A DNA stretch of 64,000 nucleotides from Ecytonucleospora hepatopenaei. Its lineage: Eukaryota; Microsporidia; Enterocytozoonidae. A program made the position numbers and the translations under genes. The notes under the pieces are model-generated. The model made no database searches, had not been told where the DNA came from, and worked only from the letters and a program-made list of their open reading frames with translations. Positions 10,297 to 28,438 of this stretch are shown here, one piece after another. The stretch lies in assembly GCA_026692725.1 (NCBI GenBank), contig JAPMUG010000010.1:77001-141000 (forward strand), written 5' to 3'. Numbering within the stretch: position 1 is the first letter of the stretch; each line of letters begins with the position of its first letter.

Positions 10297-10354
10297 ACAA
10301 ACAAATTTTAATTTTGTTTGTATAACGCATAAAAAAGAACTTAGATTTTATGCA
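10297..10354 (+). promoter_or_regulatory. Palindromic upstream element plus GCATAAA box, copy 1
   Basis: ACAAACAAA (10297-10305), a 7-bp spacer and TTTGTTTGT (10313-10321) form a perfect 9-7-9 inverted repeat ending 33 bp before the ATG. It is followed by CGCATAAAA and TTTTATGCA. The same element occurs at two other paralogous genes. Confidence 0.8.
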
Positions 10355-11317
10355 ATGCATTTCTTAAAATATATTTTAAGAGCAAACACAGCACTTGATT
10401 TTTGCAGGCAAGACATAATGGCTGCGGAACAATGTTTGTCAAATCCATGCGAAAGATACAATCCTCAACCACCATATTGTCCAGTGCCATATGTTGAAAG
10501 ACCCTGTGTTCCTAGTGAAGCAGCAAATCAGGCACTTAGAGAATTAGAACTTTTACTTAAAGAGTTTACACCAAGTCTATTAGGTTATGTAAATAGAGAA
10601 ATTCACCGTGCGTTTAATGAACTCTATACTGAACTTTTATTAGCAGATGCAAGGGCAGACGATGAAATTTTCCATCTAGCACACCAGTTAGAAAGAGAAA
10701 TCCTTGAAGTAGTGAGCATTCGTCTTAAGGAATTTGGATTTAGCTTAGCAACATCCATAAGGAACGGATTTGCTAAATCTAGAGTAGCAGGTGCAGCTGC
10801 ATTGGCAGCTGCAAAAGTTGATATTGCAGCAGTTATAACAGCGTTATCTGCACTAACAGATGCTGAAATCTTAGCAAACTTACAGGACAAAACTAATGGA
10901 TTTCAAGCACAGGCAATTAGTGCTGCAAGGGGAATTAGCGCTGCAACAATTGCATCACTGCAAAAACAAGAAAAGGACATTTTATCAAAAATATCTCAAG
11001 GTATTGCAAATGAAAAGGCTTTCTTAACAAACTCAATAGCAAAATTTTTTAAAGATTTCGACAAAGGTGCCAAAGCAGTCTATGCAAACTATAATGCAGT
11101 CACTAGAAAATTAATTGAAAATGCTAAGATTTATTTAGAAAATGAAATATCAAGAATTATAGCATACAAAACAAGAAGAGATGGTATGATGGCTGTTGGT
11201 ATTTTAAGAAGACTGATCCAAACAGAGACAGGATGTAATTATGTTGAAGGATCAATCCCTATTAATTTGTTAATTAACCAGCCACAATTTCAACGTCAAC
11301 ATCAAATAACTGTGTAA
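10355..11317 (+). CDS. Helical secreted-type protein, three-member family, copy 1
   Basis: A 320-residue protein with a short, weakly hydrophobic N-terminus, a Cys/Pro-rich segment (about residues 30-50, six Cys-containing motifs ending RPCVPSEAANQALRELELLL) and then an almost fully alpha-helical, Ala/Ile/Leu-rich body. It is clearly paralogous to the product at 19020 (shared CVPxExANxALRxxExLL near the N-terminus, AIAKLFKDF and LExEI blocks near the C-terminus) and more distantly to that at 11852. Abundance-type composition, Cys-rich head and the shared upstream palindrome suggest a structural spore wall or polar tube component, but no known family could be matched. Function is inference. 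Confidence 0.7.
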   Translation: MHFLKYILRANTALDFCRQDIMAAEQCLSNPCERYNPQPPYCPVPYVERPCVPSEAANQALRELELLLKEFTPSLLGYVNREIHRAFNELYTELLLADARADDEIFHLAHQLEREILEVVSIRLKEFGFSLATSIRNGFAKSRVAGAAALAAAKVDIAAVITALSALTDAEILANLQDKTNGFQAQAISAARGISAATIASLQKQEKDILSKISQGIANEKAFLTNSIAKFFKDFDKGAKAVYANYNAVTRKLIENAKIYLENEISRIIAYKTRRDGMMAVGILRRLIQTETGCNYVEGSIPINLLINQPQFQRQHQITV

Positions 11318-11343
11318 ATACAGATATTGAAAATTAAATAAAT

Positions 11344-11745
11344 ATGTGTTCTAAATTTTCATCCTTTTATTTTATTATGGCTTCAGACCTTCTTCTTTTT
11401 GTCAATGAAGAAGAAAAAATAGTATTACACATTGAACTTAATGCTGACAGTGCTTCTTCCTTAATCTTTTTTATAGCATATGCATCCATTAAACAAACGG
11501 AAGGTTTTTATGAAGATTTTATGGTATATAAAACATATTGTATGCATGGTGCACAGATTATATATGTTACAAATAGGAAAATAGGCGATAAATATTTACA
11601 AGACTTTTTAAATAAGATTCAAAATATGTTTTATAAAATTTTATTACATCCAAATATTTATAAAAATGACTGTATTGAATCAGATGAGTTTGAAAATTTT
11701 ATAAAACAGGAATATGTAGATATGATTACTAAAATAGAATTATAA
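11344..11745 (+). CDS. TRAPP complex subunit, sedlin/Trs20-like (longin fold)
   Basis: TRAPP tethers vesicles and activates Rab1-type GTPases at the Golgi. The 133-residue protein has the longin-fold order: an N-terminal strand (ASDLLLFVNEEEKIVLHIEL), a helix (LIFFIAYASIKQT), strands, then a C-terminal helix block FLNKIQNMFYKILLHPNIYKNDCIESDEFENFIKQEYV, which follows the sedlin pattern of a helix, N-P-F/Y, then I.S..F...V. An alternative start is the ATG at 11377 (MASDLLLF), which fits sedlins better. It begins only 26 bp after the preceding stop codon. Assignment to Trs20 rather than another longin subunit is moderate. Confidence 0.6.
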   Translation: MCSKFSSFYFIMASDLLLFVNEEEKIVLHIELNADSASSLIFFIAYASIKQTEGFYEDFMVYKTYCMHGAQIIYVTNRKIGDKYLQDFLNKIQNMFYKILLHPNIYKNDCIESDEFENFIKQEYVDMITKIEL

Positions 11746-11790
11746 AAATATTTTATGTTTGCATTAGTTAGATATTAAGAAATGGTAAAC

Positions 11791-11851
11791 ACAAACAAAA
11801 TAAAATTTTGTTTGTATAATTAAGCATAAAAACAAACAGAATGCATAAAAC
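11791..11851 (+). promoter_or_regulatory. Palindromic upstream element plus GCATAAA box, copy 2
   Basis: ACAAACAAA (11791-11799), 7 bp, TTTGTTTGT (11807-11815), ending 36 bp before the ATG. AAGCATAAAA and ATGCATAAAAC follow, the latter directly against the start codon. Confidence 0.85.
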
Positions 11852-12817
11852 ATGTTTTTGTTTTTTAGAGCATTGACAGTAGCAACTTATTCATTTGAAT
11901 GCAGGACAGACTGTACACCACCAGAAGATTTTAACCAATGTTTTGACAACCCTGATTATTGTGAATCTTCCTCTCGTGAGTCATATGTTCCAGTTGTGTA
12001 TACAGCACCAACACCTAAACTGGCAGATGCAAACTTAAGTGGTGCAGTTGCTCTTCTTGTTACATCAATAACAGATGAAGGAAAGGTACTAAAATCAAGA
12101 CTCTATCAACTTTTTCATGAAATTGAAAACTGTTTAGATGAAGATGTAAAATGTTGTAAAGAAGAAATTAAAGAAGTAACAGAAGATACTGTAAACAAGA
12201 CATGTGTTAATGAAACAGAAAGCGCAAAACTTTTGTTTGATAAATTGGTTAGTGATATCAATGATGTTTTATCTTCATGCACAGATGATGTTGAAGCAGA
12301 AGTTACTGCAGCATTTTTAGCTTTGAATGCAAAAATTACTGCTGAAATTACACGTGTAGCTGGATTAAAAAACAAAGAATTGATGGATTATGTTAGAAAT
12401 CTATCATCAGGTCTTTTACCCACATTACTTAGCTTTACAAATGTTACAAAAAATACTGTTGAAACAAGTATTAGGGCAACAGAAGAAGCATGCAAAGAAG
12501 AAGCATTAAGGCTATTAACTCAATTTTACCCTAGACTTGAGACTATTGTAAGACAAGCTTGTTCACAGCTTTCAACTGAAATGAATGAGACAACTGAATC
12601 GAAAATGGGATCTTTAAAAATCAACTGTTTTTACATTGATGAAATAAAATCAAAATTTAACAATTACATTAAAAATCATCAATCAAATTTAACCAGAGCA
12701 ATCCAAGAATGGGGTGCACTTTATTTGAACAATTTGTGTAAAAAACCATATGCAACAAAAAGCAAATATGTACCACAAAATTATAACAATTACATGAGAA
12801 GAGCAGTTTGTTCTTAA
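11852..12817 (+). CDS. Helical secreted-type protein, three-member family, copy 2
   Basis: A 321-residue protein with a hydrophobic N-terminal signal (MFLFFRALTVATYSF), a Cys-rich segment (CRTDCTPPEDFNQCFDNPDYC), then a long helical body. It has more cysteines in the body (CLDEDVKCC, SSCTDD, RQACSQ) and possible N-glycosylation sites (NKT, NET, NVT). It is the most diverged member of the family but shares size, Cys-rich head, helical body and the 9-7-9 upstream palindrome. Cysteine-rich, signal-bearing, helical proteins suit a disulphide-linked extracellular structure; identity is unknown. Confidence 0.7.
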   Translation: MFLFFRALTVATYSFECRTDCTPPEDFNQCFDNPDYCESSSRESYVPVVYTAPTPKLADANLSGAVALLVTSITDEGKVLKSRLYQLFHEIENCLDEDVKCCKEEIKEVTEDTVNKTCVNETESAKLLFDKLVSDINDVLSSCTDDVEAEVTAAFLALNAKITAEITRVAGLKNKELMDYVRNLSSGLLPTLLSFTNVTKNTVETSIRATEEACKEEALRLLTQFYPRLETIVRQACSQLSTEMNETTESKMGSLKINCFYIDEIKSKFNNYIKNHQSNLTRAIQEWGALYLNNLCKKPYATKSKYVPQNYNNYMRRAVCS

Positions 12818-12928
12818 ACACTAAAACATTAAAACATTATAATATTATAATATTAGTAGAATTGTTTAAATAATAAATATCAATATTGTAATTAGTAAAA
12901 TTGTTGTAAAATGTTTAATTTAATTATT

Positions 12929-15900
12929 TTAAGCATTAAAATCATATAAAACATCAAATGAACCTGTCCCATTTTTTATCAAATTACCAACTGAAATATT
13001 AGCAGATGGATTAGACATGTTATCTTCTAAACAAAATCGACCGGCTTCTTTTATTTTCGTAAAACAAGATTCATATGACATTCTCTGTATAATTGAATCA
13101 TTTATATCAAATGAATGCCTATTAAAAGCACCATAATTACCATTTCTAGTCATATAATCAGCAGTTAATTCCAAGTGCTTTTGCTCTATTGAAATTCCAT
13201 AAACACCAAATACATTTTCTATTTCACTAACAATTACACTTCTAGCTGCTTCTATTCCAAAGTGAATATACACAGAATATATATCATTTGAAAGTGAATT
13301 ATAAAACATTTTCATATTATTGTGAAAAATACTCATTCCAAACAAGTTAATAAATGTACTGCCTTCTAAATATACGTCATAAAGTTCACAGTTATTTGAA
13401 CCAACACCATTAGCTTTTACTGCTTTAGCACCACCAAAACCATCAACTTCTCTTATAATTGTAGATTTTAATGTATTTTCTACATGTTCCATAACATTAG
13501 CCTTAAAATTGCTTGGGTATTTTAAATGGAGGAAAATTCGCTTGTTTTTAATCTTAAAAATACTATTTTCAACGTTAAACAAATTATCATCATTTTCTTC
13601 CTGGGTATTTGAAATATCATCATTCTTTGTTGCTGTTAATATTTCATCATCTGTCATATCATCATCAACTTTAGTATCATCATTGCTTGATAAATCATGA
13701 TTTCCATTTTTTATAGTAACATCGCTTTCGCTGCTATTTTCATCACTGGATGTTTCTTGATCACTTTTTTCATTTTTATATTCAGCATCTTCTTTCTTTT
13801 CTTCATCTAAAATTTCAATTGCACTAAGTTTAAGCCTAAGCATTTTGTTTAACTTCCTCATGAATTTTTGGTTAAGAATAGTAACAAACTCTTTAAAAAT
13901 ACCTTCTTCTTGATATTCATGTGAAATGGAAATTACAATGGAAAGTCTTTTGCTGTATCCACCGGCTGCAAAATTTCTTTCCTTAACATATTTTTCTGTT
14001 ATTTTTATTTCATTAACCATGTCATATGCAGTTAAAACATTAAAAGTTTCTATCAAATCATCAGAAATATTTTTAGGAACCGCATTTAGTGCTATTGATG
14101 GTGTTTTAATAGTTTTGGATGCAACCATAACTATTTCCCTAAGTCTTGGAATTCCAAGGGTGACATTTCTTCCACCTACACCTGCCAAGTGGAAGGTATT
14201 GAGTGTCATTTGGGTGGATGGTTCTCCAATGGATTGTGCTGCAATAACACCCACTGATGTGCCCGGGATATCTTCACTGCCATAGCAAATAATTCTATTG
14301 TTTACATTTTTAAGTCTAATACTGCCATCATATGCAACTGTAATGCCTTCCATATGTTTTACCAGACACCTTTGTAAATATCCACTGTTAGCTGTTTTAA
14401 CTGCAGTGTCAATCAATCCTTCTCTCCCTGCCATACAGTGAAAATAAAAACTGCTTGCGCTTAACCCTGTCAAAAATCTTTCTAAAACAAAACCTCCCGC
14501 TGAAACATTTTGGTAATAGTCTACACTCGAAAAGCAGGGAAGAGATTTTCCTGATATCTGTTGTGGCACTCTCCTACCCTCCAATTCCTGCTGTCCCAAA
14601 CAGATGGATATTTGACTCAAATTAACCATACTTCCTTTTGCTCCTGACTGTATTATATTAAGCATATTGTTTTTAAGTTTTTGTTTAGACATATCCTCAT
14701 TTAAAATACATTGTAAATCACTGACTGATTCATTAACTTTTTTAAATAACACACCTGCTTCTTTTTTTATTTCTTCCGTTAATTTATGCTTGTTATTTGC
14801 TACTTTATAAAAGCAATGTAAATTGTTATTTAGCTTTTCCTCTCCTTCTTTGTTTAAAAGTAAATCATCATAACTCAATGTAAATCCTTTATGTATAACG
14901 TATTCATTTACCATTCTGCCAAAAACAGTAAGCAAAACATTGCATATTGATGTGCTGTATTTTTTACTTAAAACATGAATGATATTATTAGGTGATGTTC
15001 CAAGTGTATTCTTATCCAAAAGACCAGTTACCATTATAGAATTAACAAACAAAACATTATCACCATCAACTTTTCCTTTTTGGCAATAGCTAAAGTCTGT
15101 AATTCCTAAATTTATCAAAATAGTTGAAACAATATCTTTACCTGTAAAATATTTAATACTTCCACAGCATATGCTACCTTCTAAAAACACAATTTTATCC
15201 CTTTTATTCCTTATATTCATTTTATAAACATATGCATAAATAGCATTAAATACGATTTGCCTGTATTCCCATTCTAAGAAAAATTCACTTGGTAAAGTCA
15301 AAACGGTTGCACCGACAAGGTGATCCTGCGACAACCCGCGAATTGGCGCATTTGTAGAGGGAACAAAATAAAGACGATCTGTAGAGCAAACCTCGTTAAT
15401 TTCAGAAATGCTTTGTAAATCTTGTGGAAAGTGAATGTTCATCTCGTCTCCGTCAAAGTCTGCGTTATACGATTTGCAGTTGACGTAGTGCATACGCAAA
15501 GTTTTTTCATTTTTTAAAACACGCACTGTGTGACCCATCAGAGATACAACGTGTAAGGTTGGCTGGCGATTCACAAGAACCTTGTCTCCAGATACCAAAT
15601 GACGGTATACATGGACATCATTGGAATCAGAATGATTTTCTCCATTTACAAAATTTCCTTCTATGTAGCTTTCTACAAACTTTTTTCTTTTTTCTCGTGT
15701 AACATGCTTAAGGCTAATCATTTCACCATTTACACGCAAATAGTTGGCACCTGGATAAAAATTGTGGCCATTCACAACTGCTTCACTTAGCTTCTTTTGG
15801 TTGTACTTGTTTAATTTCTCAGGAAAAGTCAACTGCTGAGCAAAAACCAAGGGAACTCCGATTTCCCCAGTTTCAAGGCACGGATCTGGAGAAATCACAG

Positions 15901-16933
15901 AACGAGCTGAAAAATTCACTCTCTTTCCCATGATATTCTGGCGAAAAAGACCTTCCTTCTTTTCAAGCACCTGCTTTATTCCCTCTTTTCCTGCCTTAGA
16001 ATCTTTTGCCTGTGCACTGTCGTAATATGCGTTAATTTGAACCTGCAACTCTCCTTCAAATTTGCTATCATTTTCTGCTAACATACTCATGTTAAGAATG
16101 TGTGTTAACTGAGTGTTCATGGGATTTTCATAAATCATTCCATCTCTCATTTTGGCCGGTCTCATCTTATTTGGACTTATCAAAATATTTTCAATAAAAA
16201 ACATGTCATTTATTAACGTACTTTCAAACCCATCATTTTCTTCTTTTTTGTACTCGCTAAAATCCGTGTTAAACATTTTTTCAAATAACACGTTTTCATT
16301 TTTAAAAGCTTCGTACATTATTTCGTATATTTCTGTTACTTTCATAAAAAGCAACTCTCCTTCAATTTCGTTTGCTATTTTAGCATTCTGTATTTTTTTG
16401 ATTCTTGGATTTGTTTTGTTACATTCCATGCACTTTACTTTTGAATTCATTCTTTTTATCCAATCATACACTGTCAAAACATGTTTATTCATGTCCTTGT
16501 TTCTCTCTTCAGACAAACTTATTATATTTGCCAGTTCTTCGTATGTTTCTACATTGCTGTTGTTTAGGTCATTAATAACAAGTTCTGCTTTACTCATTTC
16601 AAGATAAAAATTAAGTCTTTCCGTTGGTGTTAACTTCATTTTTTTGCAATTAAAGCAAATGCATTTTAAGAGGGAAACCAACAACTCAAAGCTAAGTGGA
16701 TTGAATGATTTTCTAATGGGTAGATAACCAAAGTGTCCTGGACAAGAAAGAAAGTCTAAAGAACACGTTTTGCATATTTCATCCTTTTCACATGGACCCA
16801 TATGCAAATCATAAAAGCCATTTTCAACTGCATGTCCAAACTTGTCAAGAGATCTTGCTTCTGTTACTTTTATATCTGCTAAACTTATAATTTCCTTTTG
16901 TTTATACCATTTAAACTTTAAATTTGAAATCAT
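12929..16933 (-). CDS. RPA190: RNA polymerase I largest subunit (A190)
   Basis: The catalytic subunit of Pol I, which transcribes rRNA in the nucleolus. The 1334-residue protein has an N-terminal zinc site (CKTC..C..GH, residues 54-67), the clamp and the invariant metal-binding NADFDGDE near residues 488-495, a bridge-helix region, and the C-terminal block with EAARSVIVSEIENVFGVYGISIEQKHL followed by NGTGSFDVL. A strongly acidic, low-complexity insert at about residues 1040-1125 is characteristic of A190 and absent from Pol II and Pol III. No heptad C-terminal domain is present, which excludes Pol II. It is shorter than yeast A190 (about 1660). 5S rRNA lies 187 bp upstream on the other strand. 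Confidence 0.93.
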   Translation of the reverse strand: MISNLKFKWYKQKEIISLADIKVTEARSLDKFGHAVENGFYDLHMGPCEKDEICKTCSLDFLSCPGHFGYLPIRKSFNPLSFELLVSLLKCICFNCKKMKLTPTERLNFYLEMSKAELVINDLNNSNVETYEELANIISLSEERNKDMNKHVLTVYDWIKRMNSKVKCMECNKTNPRIKKIQNAKIANEIEGELLFMKVTEIYEIMYEAFKNENVLFEKMFNTDFSEYKKEENDGFESTLINDMFFIENILISPNKMRPAKMRDGMIYENPMNTQLTHILNMSMLAENDSKFEGELQVQINAYYDSAQAKDSKAGKEGIKQVLEKKEGLFRQNIMGKRVNFSARSVISPDPCLETGEIGVPLVFAQQLTFPEKLNKYNQKKLSEAVVNGHNFYPGANYLRVNGEMISLKHVTREKRKKFVESYIEGNFVNGENHSDSNDVHVYRHLVSGDKVLVNRQPTLHVVSLMGHTVRVLKNEKTLRMHYVNCKSYNADFDGDEMNIHFPQDLQSISEINEVCSTDRLYFVPSTNAPIRGLSQDHLVGATVLTLPSEFFLEWEYRQIVFNAIYAYVYKMNIRNKRDKIVFLEGSICCGSIKYFTGKDIVSTILINLGITDFSYCQKGKVDGDNVLFVNSIMVTGLLDKNTLGTSPNNIIHVLSKKYSTSICNVLLTVFGRMVNEYVIHKGFTLSYDDLLLNKEGEEKLNNNLHCFYKVANNKHKLTEEIKKEAGVLFKKVNESVSDLQCILNEDMSKQKLKNNMLNIIQSGAKGSMVNLSQISICLGQQELEGRRVPQQISGKSLPCFSSVDYYQNVSAGGFVLERFLTGLSASSFYFHCMAGREGLIDTAVKTANSGYLQRCLVKHMEGITVAYDGSIRLKNVNNRIICYGSEDIPGTSVGVIAAQSIGEPSTQMTLNTFHLAGVGGRNVTLGIPRLREIVMVASKTIKTPSIALNAVPKNISDDLIETFNVLTAYDMVNEIKITEKYVKERNFAAGGYSKRLSIVISISHEYQEEGIFKEFVTILNQKFMRKLNKMLRLKLSAIEILDEEKKEDAEYKNEKSDQETSSDENSSESDVTIKNGNHDLSSNDDTKVDDDMTDDEILTATKNDDISNTQEENDDNLFNVENSIFKIKNKRIFLHLKYPSNFKANVMEHVENTLKSTIIREVDGFGGAKAVKANGVGSNNCELYDVYLEGSTFINLFGMSIFHNNMKMFYNSLSNDIYSVYIHFGIEAARSVIVSEIENVFGVYGISIEQKHLELTADYMTRNGNYGAFNRHSFDINDSIIQRMSYESCFTKIKEAGRFCLEDNMSNPSANISVGNLIKNGTGSFDVLYDFNA

Positions 16934-17120
16934 AAAGTAGTTTAAAAATTTTAAATAACTTAAAAATTATAATAAGGAATAAAAAAAGATTTTTATATTT
17001 TTGTAATACTTTAAAGATTTTTTGCAAATTTTAAATGCAAAAGTGTCAAAAAGAAGCAAAAAATACGAAGATATTTACTTTTATATACACAATGTTATAT
17101 TTAAACTAGAAATTATAAAC

Positions 17121-17239
17121 AGTTGCGGTCATATTTTCAGATAAGCTCCCGAACCCGTCAGCTCTCGGTAGATAAACCTGTACAAGCTTAAACAAGTACT
17201 GAGTTGAGAGATCACTCGGAAACGTTAAGTACTGCAATT
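17121..17239 (+). rRNA. 5S ribosomal RNA
   Basis: About 119 bp starting AGTTGCGGTCATA and ending GTACTGCAATT. The 5' AGTTGC pairs with 3' GCAATT to close helix I. Internal segments follow the eukaryotic 5S order: CCCGAACCCGTCAGCTCTCGG (loop B and helix III region), an A-box-like AAGCTTAAACAAGTACT, then GAGTTGAGAGATCACTCGGAAACGTTAAGTACTGC. A T run at 17238-17243 is a normal Pol III terminator. The sequence is diverged from common fungal 5S but all landmarks are in place. It is a single dispersed copy between protein genes, not in an rDNA unit. Confidence 0.9.
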
Positions 17240-17244
17240 TTTTG
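17236..17244 (+). terminator. Pol III oligo-T terminator of the 5S gene
   Basis: A run of T residues immediately after the 3' end of the 5S rRNA, matching the usual RNA polymerase III termination signal. Confidence 0.7.
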
Positions 17245-17251
17245 TAAAATT

Positions 17252-18124
17252 TTATTTATTGAAAAATTTTGTTTCCTGAAGTTTTTTGAGCTGTTTAAGT
17301 TGTTCATCATACCATTCTAAAATATCATCTATATTTTGTTTATTTTTAAGTTTTTCATATTCACTTTGTAATTTTTCAATTGTTTCTTTTAATTTTGATA
17401 ATACTGTATTAGTTAAAACCTTGCTTGTTTGATATATTTTAAAATTTCTAGAAAAATCTTCTCCTTCAATTTCTAAATCTTTCATTTCTGCTACATCCTT
17501 TTTAAGTTCATCAAAGTTACATTCATCGACATCAGTTGAATCTACCGTTGCACCTTTTATTGCGTATTTTTGCTTACTTTTTTGTTTTGTTCTAAATGAT
17601 GTTATTCGACGAATTTTAAAGTTTGTATTTTCTATTACTTGTTTGAACTTTTCAGCATAATCAGGCATCATTATTTCTTTAAGTTCATAAAATTTGAATG
17701 TTATTTTTTTAGACAATTTTTTAAGTTTTCTCTTTTTCAACGGATGTGTTCTTTTTATTTTTTGTTTAATTGTTTCTGCTTTTTCTAAAGCAGGTTTGCT
17801 CTGACTGATATGGCTAAAAAGTTTTAGACGTTCTTCTGGTAACCATAAAAGCATATCGTTTGTATATTTTGGCAGTTTCTTAATTTTATCATCTAAAACA
17901 TCCAAATAATTTTGTATGTATTTAAGCTCTTCTTTATTGCTTTTATATTCATCATAATTCCTTTTTAGAGTTGCACAAAAAGAATTTAAAATGTAGATAA
18001 AATTTAAGGCTATTTGTTTGATTAGAAAACAAATAACAAATAATTGTTTAATCAAAAAAATGATGAATAAAAAGATTATTGTGTAGCACAAAATTTCATT
18101 TAAATACAAAAAATGTTGTTTCAT
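17252..18124 (-). CDS. Membrane protein with N-terminal helices and charged coiled coil
   Basis: From the ATG at 18124 the product has 290 residues. (The frame remains open upstream but only from a TTG.) Residues 12-45 are very hydrophobic and may form one or two transmembrane helices or an uncleaved signal anchor. The rest is Lys/Glu-rich and mostly helical, with a strongly basic segment (KIKRTHPLKKRKLKKLSKK) and a C-terminal coiled coil. Upstream on the minus strand is TTTTATGCATTG, resembling the GCATAAA-type boxes of the helical secreted family. No known family recognised. Confidence 0.6.
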   Translation of the reverse strand: MKQHFLYLNEILCYTIIFLFIIFLIKQLFVICFLIKQIALNFIYILNSFCATLKRNYDEYKSNKEELKYIQNYLDVLDDKIKKLPKYTNDMLLWLPEERLKLFSHISQSKPALEKAETIKQKIKRTHPLKKRKLKKLSKKITFKFYELKEIMMPDYAEKFKQVIENTNFKIRRITSFRTKQKSKQKYAIKGATVDSTDVDECNFDELKKDVAEMKDLEIEGEDFSRNFKIYQTSKVLTNTVLSKLKETIEKLQSEYEKLKNKQNIDDILEWYDEQLKQLKKLQETKFFNK

Positions 18125-18273
18125 TGCATTTTTACAAATTTTTATAATAAACAATGCATAAAAGATATTATTTTAATAATTTTAAATTTTATTCAACTCA
18201 TTTTATCTAGTGTTGAAACAAAAAATAATAAATTTATCTTGACATTTATTTAGAAACACGCATTTGTATGTTA

Positions 18274-18819
18274 TTAACCTTCTAACTCACTTTTTATTTG
18301 GAGCAAAGCAATTATTTGTGATGTTAAAAAACTTGAAATATCCTTAATTTGTGTTCCTTCTAAACTTTTTAATTCTGATTGAAGTAACCTGATCATTTCA
18401 TTTATTTCTTCCAACAAAAACATTTTATGTTGTTGTTTTTCTTGTTGAGATTTAGTGCTAAAAAAATTACTGAAATCCTGGTAAAGAATTTCTTGAAAAG
18501 TTTGAATTTCATTATCATATACTAATAATAACTCTTTTGTAATCATTACTTCTTCTTCTTTATAGATTTTTACTTTTTCTTTATAATTTTCCTGTACACT
18601 TAAATATAACGCAAGCATTGAGTAAACATTTTTCAAAAAATGTCCCGTTTCTTTTACTCTTGTTATTGAAAAATTTTGTACACTTTTAATCTCAGCTTTT
18701 ATATCATTAGTTGATGATGTTATCATTTCGTTTAAATCAATAACTGATAAACCCTGTGTTTGAACATCTGGATTGGTTGCTTCAGCACAAAATACAAGAT
18801 TTATTAAAAATAAAAACAT
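18274..18819 (-). CDS. Small secreted helical protein, unknown function
   Basis: A 181-residue protein with a clean signal peptide (MFLFLINLVFCAEA, likely cleavage after FCA). A helical body rich in Glu, Lys, Ser and Leu follows, with no cysteine after the signal and no transmembrane segment. It is divergent from the helical family copy at 19020 and separated from it by 200 bp. Its helical, secreted nature is similar, but I cannot align it convincingly with that family. It is probably secreted or placed at the spore surface. Confidence 0.65.
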   Translation of the reverse strand: MFLFLINLVFCAEATNPDVQTQGLSVIDLNEMITSSTNDIKAEIKSVQNFSITRVKETGHFLKNVYSMLALYLSVQENYKEKVKIYKEEEVMITKELLLVYDNEIQTFQEILYQDFSNFFSTKSQQEKQQHKMFLLEEINEMIRLLQSELKSLEGTQIKDISSFLTSQIIALLQIKSELEG

Positions 18820-18961
18820 TTAAGGATGTTTAAATAACATAATATTATTCAAAAATTAAAAAATTTTAATAAACTTTGTAATACGTTTTTATATCCATCT
18901 ATAAGGTAAAAGTCATTTATTTAAAATAAAAATATTTTAAAAATTAAAATAAAATATTAAA

Positions 18962-19019
18962 ACAAACAAAAAAGTATTTTGTTTGTATTAAGCATAAAAA
19001 AAGATAAAATGCATAAAAC
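18962..19019 (+). promoter_or_regulatory. Palindromic upstream element plus GCATAAA box, copy 3
   Basis: ACAAACAAA (18962-18970), 7 bp, TTTGTTTGT (18978-18986), ending 33 bp before the ATG, followed by AAGCATAAAA and ATGCATAAAAC against the start codon, as at copy 2. Confidence 0.85.
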
Positions 19020-19934
19020 ATGTTACCAACATTATTCACAATATTTGGTATAAACATAAGAGGTTCAATGCAATTTGAAGGGCCAAGAGATCCATGTGGT
19101 CAACCATTGTATTGCGAAAAGAGAGACGAATGTGTCCCAAACGAAAAAGCAAATGAAGCACTTAGGGATTTCGAAATCCTACTTACCAACTGGTCTTCAA
19201 ATTTACAAACTGCTTCTAAAACTGCTATTGAAAATGTGTTTTCAACTTTTCACTCATCATTCAATAGCATAACAACAAAAGATGCAGCAGAAGTTAAAAA
19301 TTTGATTGATAAGCTTGAAGATGATGTTTTAGCAGCTGTAATACTTGGTTTAACTAATTTACAGGCTTCTTTAGAAAAAACAGTAACAAGTGAATTTTCT
19401 AAATTAAATGCAGCAGACCTGGCTATTCTTAAGTCAATAGAAACAAAAATTGCAAATGTGGTTGAATTTTTAGCAGGTCTACCAGAAGATCAAGCTGCAT
19501 TAGCAGTAAGAACAACTGAGTTTGGTTTACAGTACAGAATATTTGAGTTGTTTGATGTTTTGTTTGCACAGCAATCAGCTGCAGGTATTGCAGCAGAAAG
19601 CAATTTGTTGTTCCATATAACTCATGAGATATCTGAAGCAAATGACATAATAAAAGCTGCAATTGCTAAACTTTTTAAAGATTTCTTCAAAGCATTGAAA
19701 TGTCTTGATTGTAAATATGCAGCAGAACTTAAAAAAATTATTGATACAGCAAGATATAAACTTGAATCTGAAATTAACCATATGTTTACAACAATAACTC
19801 AAAGAGATTCATATTTCTTGATAGCAACAGCTAAAAAAATAGTAGAGTTACTCACCGGATGTGCACCATCATCTAATGTAGATCCATTACCATTTCTATT
19901 AAGAAACAGTGGTGGAACAATGGTAAATGGATAA
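19020..19934 (+). CDS. Helical secreted-type protein, three-member family, copy 3
   Basis: A 304-residue protein with a short hydrophobic start (MLPTLFTIFGINI), a Cys-rich head (DPCGQPLYCEKRDECVPNEKANEALRDFEILL in segments, residues 23-53) and a long helical Ala/Leu/Lys-rich body ending with a conserved Cys (LLTGCAPSS). It aligns with the product at 10355 along its length, most clearly at the CVPxExANxALR motif, the AIAKLFKDFFKA block and the final KIVELLTGC. It lies about 7 kb from its sisters, with the Pol I subunit and 5S genes between, so the family is partly dispersed. Candidate spore-surface or polar tube component by inference only. Confidence 0.7.
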   Translation: MLPTLFTIFGINIRGSMQFEGPRDPCGQPLYCEKRDECVPNEKANEALRDFEILLTNWSSNLQTASKTAIENVFSTFHSSFNSITTKDAAEVKNLIDKLEDDVLAAVILGLTNLQASLEKTVTSEFSKLNAADLAILKSIETKIANVVEFLAGLPEDQAALAVRTTEFGLQYRIFELFDVLFAQQSAAGIAAESNLLFHITHEISEANDIIKAAIAKLFKDFFKALKCLDCKYAAELKKIIDTARYKLESEINHMFTTITQRDSYFLIATAKKIVELLTGCAPSSNVDPLPFLLRNSGGTMVNG

Positions 19935-26227: not shown

Positions 26228-26566
26228 TTTGTAATTTAACGATATATTTGTTTATGTTAAAAAAATTGATAAGAAATTATATTTTTGTGTTGAATATGTT
26301 TATGAATTAAATATAATCAATTTTTGTATTTTTATGTTTTCTTCTTTATACAAAATGTTTTAAGCAAGGGTTAAAATTTTACTAAAAAAGTATCAAAAGA
26401 GGAAAGTTGTATTTTTCTCTTTTGTATTTTTTATAAAATTAGTAGCACAGTTGGCCACGTATTTCATTATTAGTTGTGTGTTTTGGACCATTAACTCTTT
26501 TATTTCTCTTATTTATTTTCAAAATAAACAAATATTTTTATAAAGGTAATAGCATAAAAACAAGGT
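26228..26566. other. Intergenic region with no identified gene
   Basis: About 340 bp between the divergent TBP and 26567 genes. It contains AAGGGTTAAAATTTT near 26366 (minus-strand CCC, TBP side) and AATAGCATAAAAACAAGG just before the ATG at 26567. A box-A-like TAGCACAGTTGG occurs near 26442 without a partner B box. No RNA gene could be folded by eye. Confidence 0.45.
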
Positions 26567-28438
26567 ATGAAATGGTTTAATGGATTTTATAAATTTAAAT
26601 TTACATCGAACGAAGACAATAAGTTTATGAAAAAGAAAAGAATTAAGAAATATATTAATAAAATATGGTTGTGTGATATAAACGAACCTGTTTTAAACAA
26701 TGAATTTGTTGCATTTGACGATGAAGATAAAGTAATCATTACAGAGGAAAAAGAAATTATAAAATATACAATGTCAACTACTAAACAGGTCATTTTTGAT
26801 AGAAAAATTGTAAATACAGAGTTTATTTTTATGAATAAAATTGGTTACCAAGATGGAAAGGTAATTATAGAAATTGAAGCAGATAATTATTTTTGTCAAA
26901 TTCCAGCTGAAGAATATAATTTACAAAATTATGGTAATTTAAGTGATGATTATACAAACAAAATTGGGTTTTTTGTTTGTGTTTTTAAGCATAAAAATAA
27001 GGATATAAGCATAAAAGATCTTAAAAAACTTGATAGCGAATATTATGAAGAAAATAGACAGACTATTACCCGGTTTATAAACGACTGTGATGTAGAAGAA
27101 GATCAATCTTCAGAAGATAGTCAAGAAGAAGAAAATAAACAGTATATTTTTGATATGGAATATTCACATACAAATAATAATGATTTGGATGAAATTGTAC
27201 TGCTTTTTATTAATTCGTTAAATTTAGAAACTAGTTCAGTTTATCATACAATTTTATCAACTATAACACAAACAAATGTTTTTACCTTTTTTATTATAAA
27301 ATCAAATATTTATGTGTATGTTTGCAATAGTTTTTTTAATTTAATTCTATTGCATAATGCATTTAAAGAAATAAATGTTAATGATTTGTTAGACCTATGT
27401 GTTTTGGGAGAAGAAATAAAAATTATTAAACAAGGCATGAATTTATTATCAAAATACACATTATTGCCTACTGATATCACTAAATATAAAAAAGACATTA
27501 TCAACAATAACGATGTTATAATAGAATGCAATGATGTTAATAAAAGTGTTCATACTTTTGTAAAACTGATAAATGAGATAAAACCATTCATATACACTGA
27601 TCTGGTAATGATGCCTATTATTAAAAAATTAGAGTATTTATTACATGGCCCATATTATAAGATAGTTTCAACCTATAAAACCAATTCTTTTTATTTGTCT
27701 AATAATAGTTCTAGTTCATTATCACTCAGTAAATTAGACAGTCTTTCTATGAGTAAACCTAAAGCTAAAAAACAAGTTAACATTCTAAATGAACCATTTA
27801 AAATAATAAGTAGAAAAATAACATTAGAATATAAATCATTTCCTCTGGTTTTTCACTGTAAAAGTGGAGTAAAAAAAGCATATGTAAACGAACAATTTAA
27901 AATAAAGTCAAATATGGTGTATGATATAAATTCAGGTAAAATATCACTGATACAATCAGAACAAACAGAAATGTTTGAAATACCAGAAATTGTAATTTTT
28001 ATATTAACCTTTAAAGGACAGTTAGATTTTATAAGACTATTTAATGATTTTGCAATTAATAATGAAAATACACTCAATATTGTAGTAATTACAATTTTAA
28101 TAAAAAGAGCATGTATGGATAAAAACATAAATGATTTAAATTATTTACTAAATAAAATAAAAAACATAAAGTTTAGTGATATAGAGTTAGAAATGATATG
28201 TAAATCAATAAATAATTATAGCATGTCTAACATATTATCAGATACATGTAATATATCAATAAAACATATTGATAACATATCAAATATAGCTGTACTTTTA
28301 AGCATATTAGATCATGGATATACAAATGATAAGATAATACAAAGAATAAAAGAGATATATGAAGAAAATGATTGGATTACAGAGGAAAATTTAAATTATA
28401 AAGAAATAGTTGATCATAATTTAACATATTATATATAA
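26567..28438 (+). CDS. Large protein of unknown function
   Basis: A 623-residue soluble protein. The N-terminal 150 residues are beta-rich, followed by an acidic spacer (DVEEDQSSEDSQEEENK, about residues 178-195), a middle hydrophobic helical part, a Ser-rich basic linker (about 380-410) and a helical C-terminal half. The beta-then-helix order resembles nucleoporin or ribosome-assembly scaffold proteins, but I could not match any signature. Its start is preceded by AATAGCATAAAAACAAGG, similar to the GCATAAA box of the helical secreted family and unlike the CCC blocks of most housekeeping genes. Confidence 0.6.
   Translation: MKWFNGFYKFKFTSNEDNKFMKKKRIKKYINKIWLCDINEPVLNNEFVAFDDEDKVIITEEKEIIKYTMSTTKQVIFDRKIVNTEFIFMNKIGYQDGKVIIEIEADNYFCQIPAEEYNLQNYGNLSDDYTNKIGFFVCVFKHKNKDISIKDLKKLDSEYYEENRQTITRFINDCDVEEDQSSEDSQEEENKQYIFDMEYSHTNNNDLDEIVLLFINSLNLETSSVYHTILSTITQTNVFTFFIIKSNIYVYVCNSFFNLILLHNAFKEINVNDLLDLCVLGEEIKIIKQGMNLLSKYTLLPTDITKYKKDIINNNDVIIECNDVNKSVHTFVKLINEIKPFIYTDLVMMPIIKKLEYLLHGPYYKIVSTYKTNSFYLSNNSSSSLSLSKLDSLSMSKPKAKKQVNILNEPFKIISRKITLEYKSFPLVFHCKSGVKKAYVNEQFKIKSNMVYDINSGKISLIQSEQTEMFEIPEIVIFILTFKGQLDFIRLFNDFAINNENTLNIVVITILIKRACMDKNINDLNYLLNKIKNIKFSDIELEMICKSINNYSMSNILSDTCNISIKHIDNISNIAVLLSILDHGYTNDKIIQRIKEIYEENDWITEENLNYKEIVDHNLTYYI

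Follow-up and report, generated by a model that had tools for sequence, protein, structure and literature searches.

Three neighbouring genes of the microsporidian Ecytonucleospora hepatopenaei are each preceded by the same inverted repeat, and the question raised by this locus is what the repeat does and what might read it. The locus lies in a window of 64,000 nucleotides (the whole stretch analyzed: C1:77001-141000, forward strand, where C1 is contig JAPMUG010000010.1 of assembly GCA_026692725.1) in a genome of 3,094,744 bases (3.09 Mb) and 13 contigs. The original prediction, made from the letters of the window alone, described a 9-7-9 palindrome, ACAAACAAA-N7-TTTGTTTGT, before three genes for secreted paralogues, and proposed a stage-specific regulon with its own transcription factor. 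Our analysis indicates that the palindrome is probably part of a proximal promoter module, in which a forkhead protein would bind the palindrome and a second factor the sequence GCATAAA. The palindrome would form the upstream half of this module and work as DNA. A pattern search recovered the exact palindrome at the three predicted places, which are the sole perfect matches in the window and end 33, 36, and 33 bp upstream of the ATGs at 10355, 11852, and 19020, respectively. The three modules and their genes are as follows (no strand is assigned to the palindromes).

10297..10321: perfect 9-7-9 palindrome, module 1
10327..10333, forward strand: GCATAAA box, 5 bp from the module 1 palindrome
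10347..10353, reverse strand: second box, reversed (TTTATGC), 25 bp from the module 1 palindrome
10355..11317, forward strand: P0001, orphan protein of 320 amino acids (aa), paralogue of P0003
11791..11815: perfect 9-7-9 palindrome, module 2
11824..11830, forward strand: GCATAAA box, 8 bp from the module 2 palindrome
11843..11849, forward strand: second GCATAAA box, 27 bp from the module 2 palindrome
11852..12817, forward strand: P0002, 321 aa, probably secreted, kinship to P0001 and P0003 not demonstrable
18962..18986: perfect 9-7-9 palindrome, module 3
18992..18998, forward strand: GCATAAA box, 5 bp from the module 3 palindrome
19011..19017, forward strand: second GCATAAA box, 24 bp from the module 3 palindrome
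19020..19934, forward strand: P0003, orphan protein of 304 aa, helical, probably secreted

The downstream boxes that had been predicted at all three genes are there, two GCATAAA boxes at each; the description as a “ATGCATAAAAC-type” box fits two of the three, since the second box before 10355 is reversed.

The window has a G+C content of 25%, and non-overlapping open reading frames (ORFs) of ≥ 100 aa cover ∼76% of it. When up to three mismatches were allowed, five palindrome matches were found in the window, compared with a mean of 0.81 and a largest value of 4 in 100 shuffles. Genome-wide, the pattern occurs at 36 places (9 perfect, 11 with one mismatch, and 16 with two), whereas the control, the palindrome read backwards (reversed arms) and searched with the same mismatches, occurs at 8 (0, 1, and 7, respectively). 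With the arms set to AYAAACAAA/TTTGTTTRT and the spacer left free from 0 to 30, 29 places were found; the spacer was 7 in 18 of them, 8 in 6, 9 in 1, and 12 in 4, and the other 27 spacers in this range gave no place in the genome. Compared with a uniform distribution, the binomial P is ∼4e-20, or 1e-17 when two perfect copies of a repeated element are removed. The everted arrangement of the arms occurs at 16 places genome-wide, several of them within one repeated element. Thus, the claim of a fixed 7-bp spacer of differing sequence stands in that the spacers vary in sequence and obey a length rule genome-wide, and it must be loosened to a spacer of 7 or 8. The 36 spacer-7 sites (≤ 2 mismatches) and the 6 spacer-8 sites make up the 42 palindromes used below; matches to a single arm, which occur at 265 places, were kept out of the statistics.

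Without any prior choice of motif, the top 7-mer in the 60-bp flanks of the 42 palindromes was GCATAAA, found in 39 of 84 flanks (2.8 expected). An earlier count found it in 37 flanks (2.4 expected) around 36 of the 42 sites, with one copy of the repeated element (L012), an overlapping second register at C8:38903, and four further sites omitted, of which three lack a box within 90 bp and the fourth has one at 78 bp. GCATAAA or TTTATGC lies within 40 bp of 34 of the 42 palindromes (9/9 perfect, 8/11 one-mismatch, 12/16 two-mismatch, and 5/6 spacer-8 sites), compared with 2 of 8 reversed-control sites and 3.7% of the 14,540 intergenic window positions that served as the baseline; the four spacer-12 sites and the spacer-9 site were omitted from the box statistics. 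Measured from the palindrome edge, the 50 box offsets fall mainly at 1–8 bp (18) and 21–33 bp (28), with 13 sites having both, and 4 fall at 9–20 bp. At 72 places, some of them overlapping, a half-site has a box no more than 30 bp after it, compared with 2 in the control; the distance is 1–8 bp in 34 of the 72 and 9–11 bp in none. Paired boxes number 41, compared with 3 in the control, and 24 of the 41 pairs are 9–14 bp apart. A 10-bp periodicity of the half-site-to-box distance was considered and not supported, and an apparent periodicity at 17–21 bp is not claimed because it is confounded by the excess at 1–8 bp. What these sequence counts establish is the palindrome with its preferred spacers and the boxes with their offsets. 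The full layout would comprise the palindrome, 1–8 bp, a GCATAAA box, ∼9–14 bp, a second GCATAAA box, and then the start codon or RNA start; many palindrome sites have one of the two boxes only.

Could such a layout have spread by the copying of one flank, or represent the inverted repeats of a mobile element? When the 150-bp flanks of all 42 sites were compared with one another, the three copies of one element alone aligned at length (∼150 bp on both sides), and after the palindromes at 11791 and 18962, 38 bp aligned at 89%; both observations speak for copying. However, apart from a double-counted site that matches itself (L016), all other flank matches at E 1e-4 or better spanned 19–54 bp, the module of P0002 is laid out like that of P0003 although the proteins are not demonstrably related, and the box offsets recur upstream of unrelated genes. 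Because the flank matches are short, one copied flank does not account for most of the sites, and we consider this explanation extremely improbable. The prediction that simple flank copying was not involved therefore holds for most flanks, which are unalike, with the exception of the box-to-ATG part after 11791 and 18962.

The three window genes had been described as encoding helical, secreted paralogues. P0001 and P0003 are indeed paralogues (27% identity, E 2e-29), whereas kinship of P0002 to either was not supported (BLASTP E 0.11 and 0.35; hhalign probability 0.9%). AlphaFold gave helical models, with a mean predicted local distance difference test score (pLDDT) of 68 for P0003 (modest) and 49 for P0002 (poor), and the N-terminal hydrophobicity of P0001 is weak. 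The description is thus retained for the kinship of P0001 and P0003 and, modestly, for the helicity of P0003; the kinship of P0002 is not demonstrable, and support is poor for its helicity and weak for the leader of P0001. A word-limited search through 5.8 billion proteins gave P0003 alone and a P0001+P0003 profile no matches other than themselves; for the profile, the 7,997 candidates with the most shared words were scored. Pfam gave solely matches under its cut-offs for the orphan proteins. Since polar tube proteins (PTPs) diverge strongly (PMC10229552), the missing PTP match for P0003 and the profile is weak evidence. A 181-aa protein with a hydrophobic leader (window 18274-18819) is encoded divergently from P0003 across a common intergenic region, and no box lies within 120 bp of its start.

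We also analyzed the genes near palindromes across the genome. A palindrome lies within 110 bp of an ORF start at 29 of 41 sites and inside an ORF of ≥ 120 aa at 7 of 41 (the second register at C8:38903 being omitted from the 42), compared with 4 of 8 and 1 of 8 control sites. Position alone proves little because control sites are about as often near starts, so start-codon nearness was dropped as proof of a promoter role, and the proposed genome scan for a bias to gene starts gave no clean answer either way. In a Pfam scan of 30 nearby proteins, we found RAD51, JAB/RPN11-like, CAF1, VPS9, ABC transporter, homeodomain, KIX, and eEF1A-like GTPase matches; an Argonaute N-terminal domain matched as well, with a score under the curated cut-off. 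At E 0.001, Pfam matched nothing in 17 of the 30 proteins. Two of these 17 are membrane proteins, encoded at L013 and L027; they are paralogues (47%, E 2e-91), and their common palindrome may therefore be inherited. CCC-like signals are also present in some of the module genes (L028, L031, and L055).

These genes bear on the proposal of a stage-specific spore or polar-tube regulon with a dedicated factor, which would be compatible with the promoter module. The palindrome does occur at the three neighbouring window genes, at a gene for a small Ser/Thr-rich protein (L006), and at one for a protein with a hydrophobic leader (L019), and the forkhead protein Mei4 drives middle-meiotic and spore genes in Schizosaccharomyces pombe (PMC4795683). 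In contrast, the nearby genes listed above, the Argonaute-like gene among them, are functionally mixed, and some palindromes lie beside likely non-coding RNAs. Nor are hydrophobic N-termini, which measure secretion crudely, enriched near palindromes (7/29 nearby proteins compared with 14/53 window ORFs). Such a regulon is consequently not supported, and we consider it unlikely. Specificity for secreted proteins was rejected because of the mixed Pfam content and the same hydrophobicity comparison. At L006, two short ORFs that are convergent, rich in Ser/Thr, and hydrophobic at their ends (1560-1775 and, on the minus strand, 2031-1822) look like small GPI-anchored proteins, and the ORF at 1560-1775 bears the full module.

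Some palindromes precede candidate non-coding RNA genes. A GC-rich element of up to ∼430 bp is present in three dispersed copies (L004:1563-1990; L009, downstream of 1525; and L012, upstream of 1501 in reverse), each of which carries, at the start, the one palindrome (perfect in two copies, near-perfect in the third) together with a box and, at the end, T-runs. The element contains no same-strand ORF of ≥ 60 aa, no Rfam match was found for the 428-nt element at lax thresholds, and it folds worse than its own shuffles (z +2.7). At L007:1349-1456 (minus strand), 44 bp from a perfect palindrome, a GC-rich sequence of ∼100 nt forms a strong hairpin (z -6.0) and ends in a T-run; no Rfam family reached its gathering score (best 28.5 of 39 bits), and we regard this sequence as a candidate small RNA. 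Given the two z-scores, the case for an RNA is weaker for the 428-nt element than for the L007 hairpin. The Argonaute-like gene (L055:486-999) has a perfect spacer-8 palindrome and a box, in the same genome as this module-associated hairpin candidate.

If L007 and the three-copy element are RNA genes, the module would be a promoter and not a feature of mRNA leaders. This matters for the alternative that the palindrome is a hairpin in the 5' untranslated region (UTR), which is encouraged by the folding of all three window palindromes into a 9–11-bp stem at -6.9 to -7.8 kcal/mol. The palindromes end 33–36 bp before the ATG, however, with the boxes in between, the 5' UTRs of Encephalitozoon cuniculi are reported to be < 7 nt (PMC2803860), and the palindrome also lies upstream of likely non-coding RNA genes. 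Because of where the palindromes lie with respect to the ATG, and because the leaders of E. cuniculi are reported to be so short, an RNA hairpin was rejected as the main role, and we consider it very improbable.

Which protein would then bind the promoter module? The forkhead consensus is RYMAAYA. Among the arm mismatches, counted at 26 of the 27 sites with mismatches (the second register again omitted), 29 of 41 belong to the forkhead-type set (A1G, C2T, A3C, and C6T), compared with 26% expected from base composition; 19 of these are C2T and 3 are C6T. At three sites, both arms are changed alike (ATAAACAAA twice in two sites and ACCAACAAA twice in one). The genome contains two canonical forkhead genes (PF00250; 127.8 and 112.8 bits), and forkhead domains are encoded at C9:31533 and C6:122780. 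A genome-wide search with PF00250 gave two strong and two weak matches, all above the cut-off; the recognition-helix text reads WQNSIRHNLSLN and WKNSIRHNLSLN. The same predicted protein of a divergent forkhead gene is encoded on two contigs (C10 and C13; L048 and L049), with a half-site and a box directly before the ATG in both. In the 220 bp upstream of the strongest forkhead gene (L046:1101-1320), there are five half-sites, of which two overlap, along with a box, compared with at most two half-sites upstream of any of the 53 window ORFs, and this suggests self-regulation. Among named records, its protein comes nearest to proteins of Nucleospora cyclopteri (63%) and Enterospora canceri (59%), and three closer records have 98, 70, and 68%; the genome was accordingly treated as Enterocytozoonidae-like. 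The neighbour of this gene (L046:2110-2817) encodes a hydrophobic N-terminus. The claim of a dedicated transcription factor is therefore plausible, in that the arms vary like a forkhead site and forkhead genes are present. Likewise, the reading of the DNA element by a symmetric or paired factor, as predicted for a bound homodimer, is supported by the spacers (18 + 6 of 29) and by the three sites with arms changed alike.

A dimer of another kind, for example an HMG-box protein on AACAAA-N7-TTTGTT, could in principle read the palindrome of the same composite module. The genome has one HMG-box gene (61 bits) along with 11 homeodomain matches, and the inner AACAAA is the least variable part of the arm, with 0 of the 41 mismatches at positions 7–9. 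Against such a reader, position 6 changes from C to T in three arms, which a strict HMG CAA core would not allow, the outer positions 1–3 vary mostly to forkhead-permitted bases (26 of the 34 mismatches there), and the forkhead gene's own promoter is loaded with half-sites. We consider a non-forkhead dimer unlikely.

Several observations weigh against the forkhead-bound promoter module that we favor. First, the sites are partly non-independent: three are one repeated element, and P0001/P0003 and L013/L027 are paralogue pairs. Second, start-codon nearness does not separate palindromes from controls, 8 of the 42 palindromes have no box within 40 bp, and the 42 boxes near 29 gene-site pairs are divided between the gene side (28) and the away side (14). 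Third, the commonest arm, ACAAACAAA, differs from the Mei4 core at one base (C where Mei4 has T), the textbook GTAAACAAA arm is absent among sites with ≤ 2 mismatches, and C-to-T changes are frequent in the small control set too (9 of 15 mismatches). Additionally, the invariant inner positions would also be predicted for an HMG box, a gene for which is present, and at forkhead gene 2 there is a single half-site without a box.

Forkhead binding, dimerisation, the transcription start site, and any role in timing are inferred. Most likely, a pair of winged-helix (forkhead) domains would sit on the two inward-facing arms, and a second factor, a homeodomain protein or a forkhead in another mode, would occupy the GCATAAA boxes. 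Together, the two factors would fix the transcription start in the short stretch that separates the last box from the ATG, a few bases ahead of the start codon; this would agree with the report that E. cuniculi leaders are very short.

The proposed module resembles several known systems in part. Mei4 of S. pombe binds (G/A)TAAA(C/T)A and favors a 3' AA (PMC4795683), and the core and 3' AA of this Mei4/FLEX forkhead system match the ATAAACAAA arms; in contrast, the commonest arm here is ACAAACAAA, in an inverted pair with a 7–8-bp spacer, with a GCATAAA partner, near the ATG. In the microsporidian Trachipleistophora hominis, forkhead-like motifs are likewise enriched upstream of genes, where Lim1-homeobox-like motifs are found as well, whereas the palindrome, the spacer rule, and the GCATAAA partner do not appear in the passages compared, the supplementary motif tables lying outside this comparison (PMC3486916). 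CCC-type signals are well known in microsporidia (PMC2803860, PMC2685015, PMC4948709), and the CCC/GGG and AAATTT signals of Encephalitozoon, Nosema, and other microsporidia are also short and immediately upstream of the ATG (PMC2803860, PMC2685015), but their sequence is different, and the module genes L028, L031, and L055 bear CCC-like signals besides. A CCC-type core promoter is expected within ∼15 bp of the ATG, and no CCC or GGG lies between the palindrome and the ATG in the three window genes. FoxP3 recognizes forkhead sites that are paired across a fixed gap, as well as TGTTG- and GCAT-containing variants (PMC12820563), and GCATAAA too may therefore be read by a forkhead protein. The inverted-repeat forkhead motif of FoxP3 (IR-FKHM) is similar in that two forkhead proteins occupy an inverted repeat whose gap is strictly set (PMC12820563), whereas its gap is 4 nt and its arms have the opposite orientation; here the 7-mers face the other way with 11 bp between them, and spacers 7 and 8 dominate in place of FoxP3-type head-to-head motifs with a 4-nt gap. 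Published microsporidian signals, in the passages compared, are of the CCC, AAATTT, and TATA types, to which the motifs listed as enriched in T. hominis can be added. Neither the GCATAAA box nor the palindrome nor their joint layout was found described in the literature searched, with most subscription papers and supplementary motif tables outside the scope of the search. The combined layout may thus be new, or may be in print elsewhere; forkhead-like and CCC-type upstream motifs of microsporidia are already known.

The palindrome had been claimed to precede no other gene in the window. The three perfect copies are indeed alone, and a fourth version with a spacer of 9 lies inside an ORF, with the following features.

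26524-26532, forward strand: half-site ATAAACAAA, upstream of the start of ORF 26567-28438
26552-26558, forward strand: GCATAAA box, upstream of the same start
26954..26980, no strand assigned: spacer-9 palindrome, inside ORF 26567-28438 (623 aa)
26989-26995 and 27009-27015, forward strand: two GCATAAA boxes adjoining the spacer-9 palindrome

The spacer-9 palindrome and its two phased boxes (26954-27015) may reflect chance, an internal promoter, or a wrong ORF. A 5S rRNA gene lies elsewhere in the window, at 17121-17240 (Rfam RF00001, 75 bits).

Gene regulation in microsporidia is little known and genetic tools are scarce. A fixed layout, countable sites, and a candidate factor that can be named would make regulation testable in vitro from sequence alone. 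We raise, as a tentative possibility, that the module represents a second stereotyped promoter class, used by genes for mRNA as well as for non-coding RNA. At its head would stand an autoregulated forkhead protein, which would also control the two-copy divergent forkhead and at least one homeodomain gene in a small hierarchical network. If this is true, a hierarchical control network would exist although the genome has lost most of its regulation otherwise.

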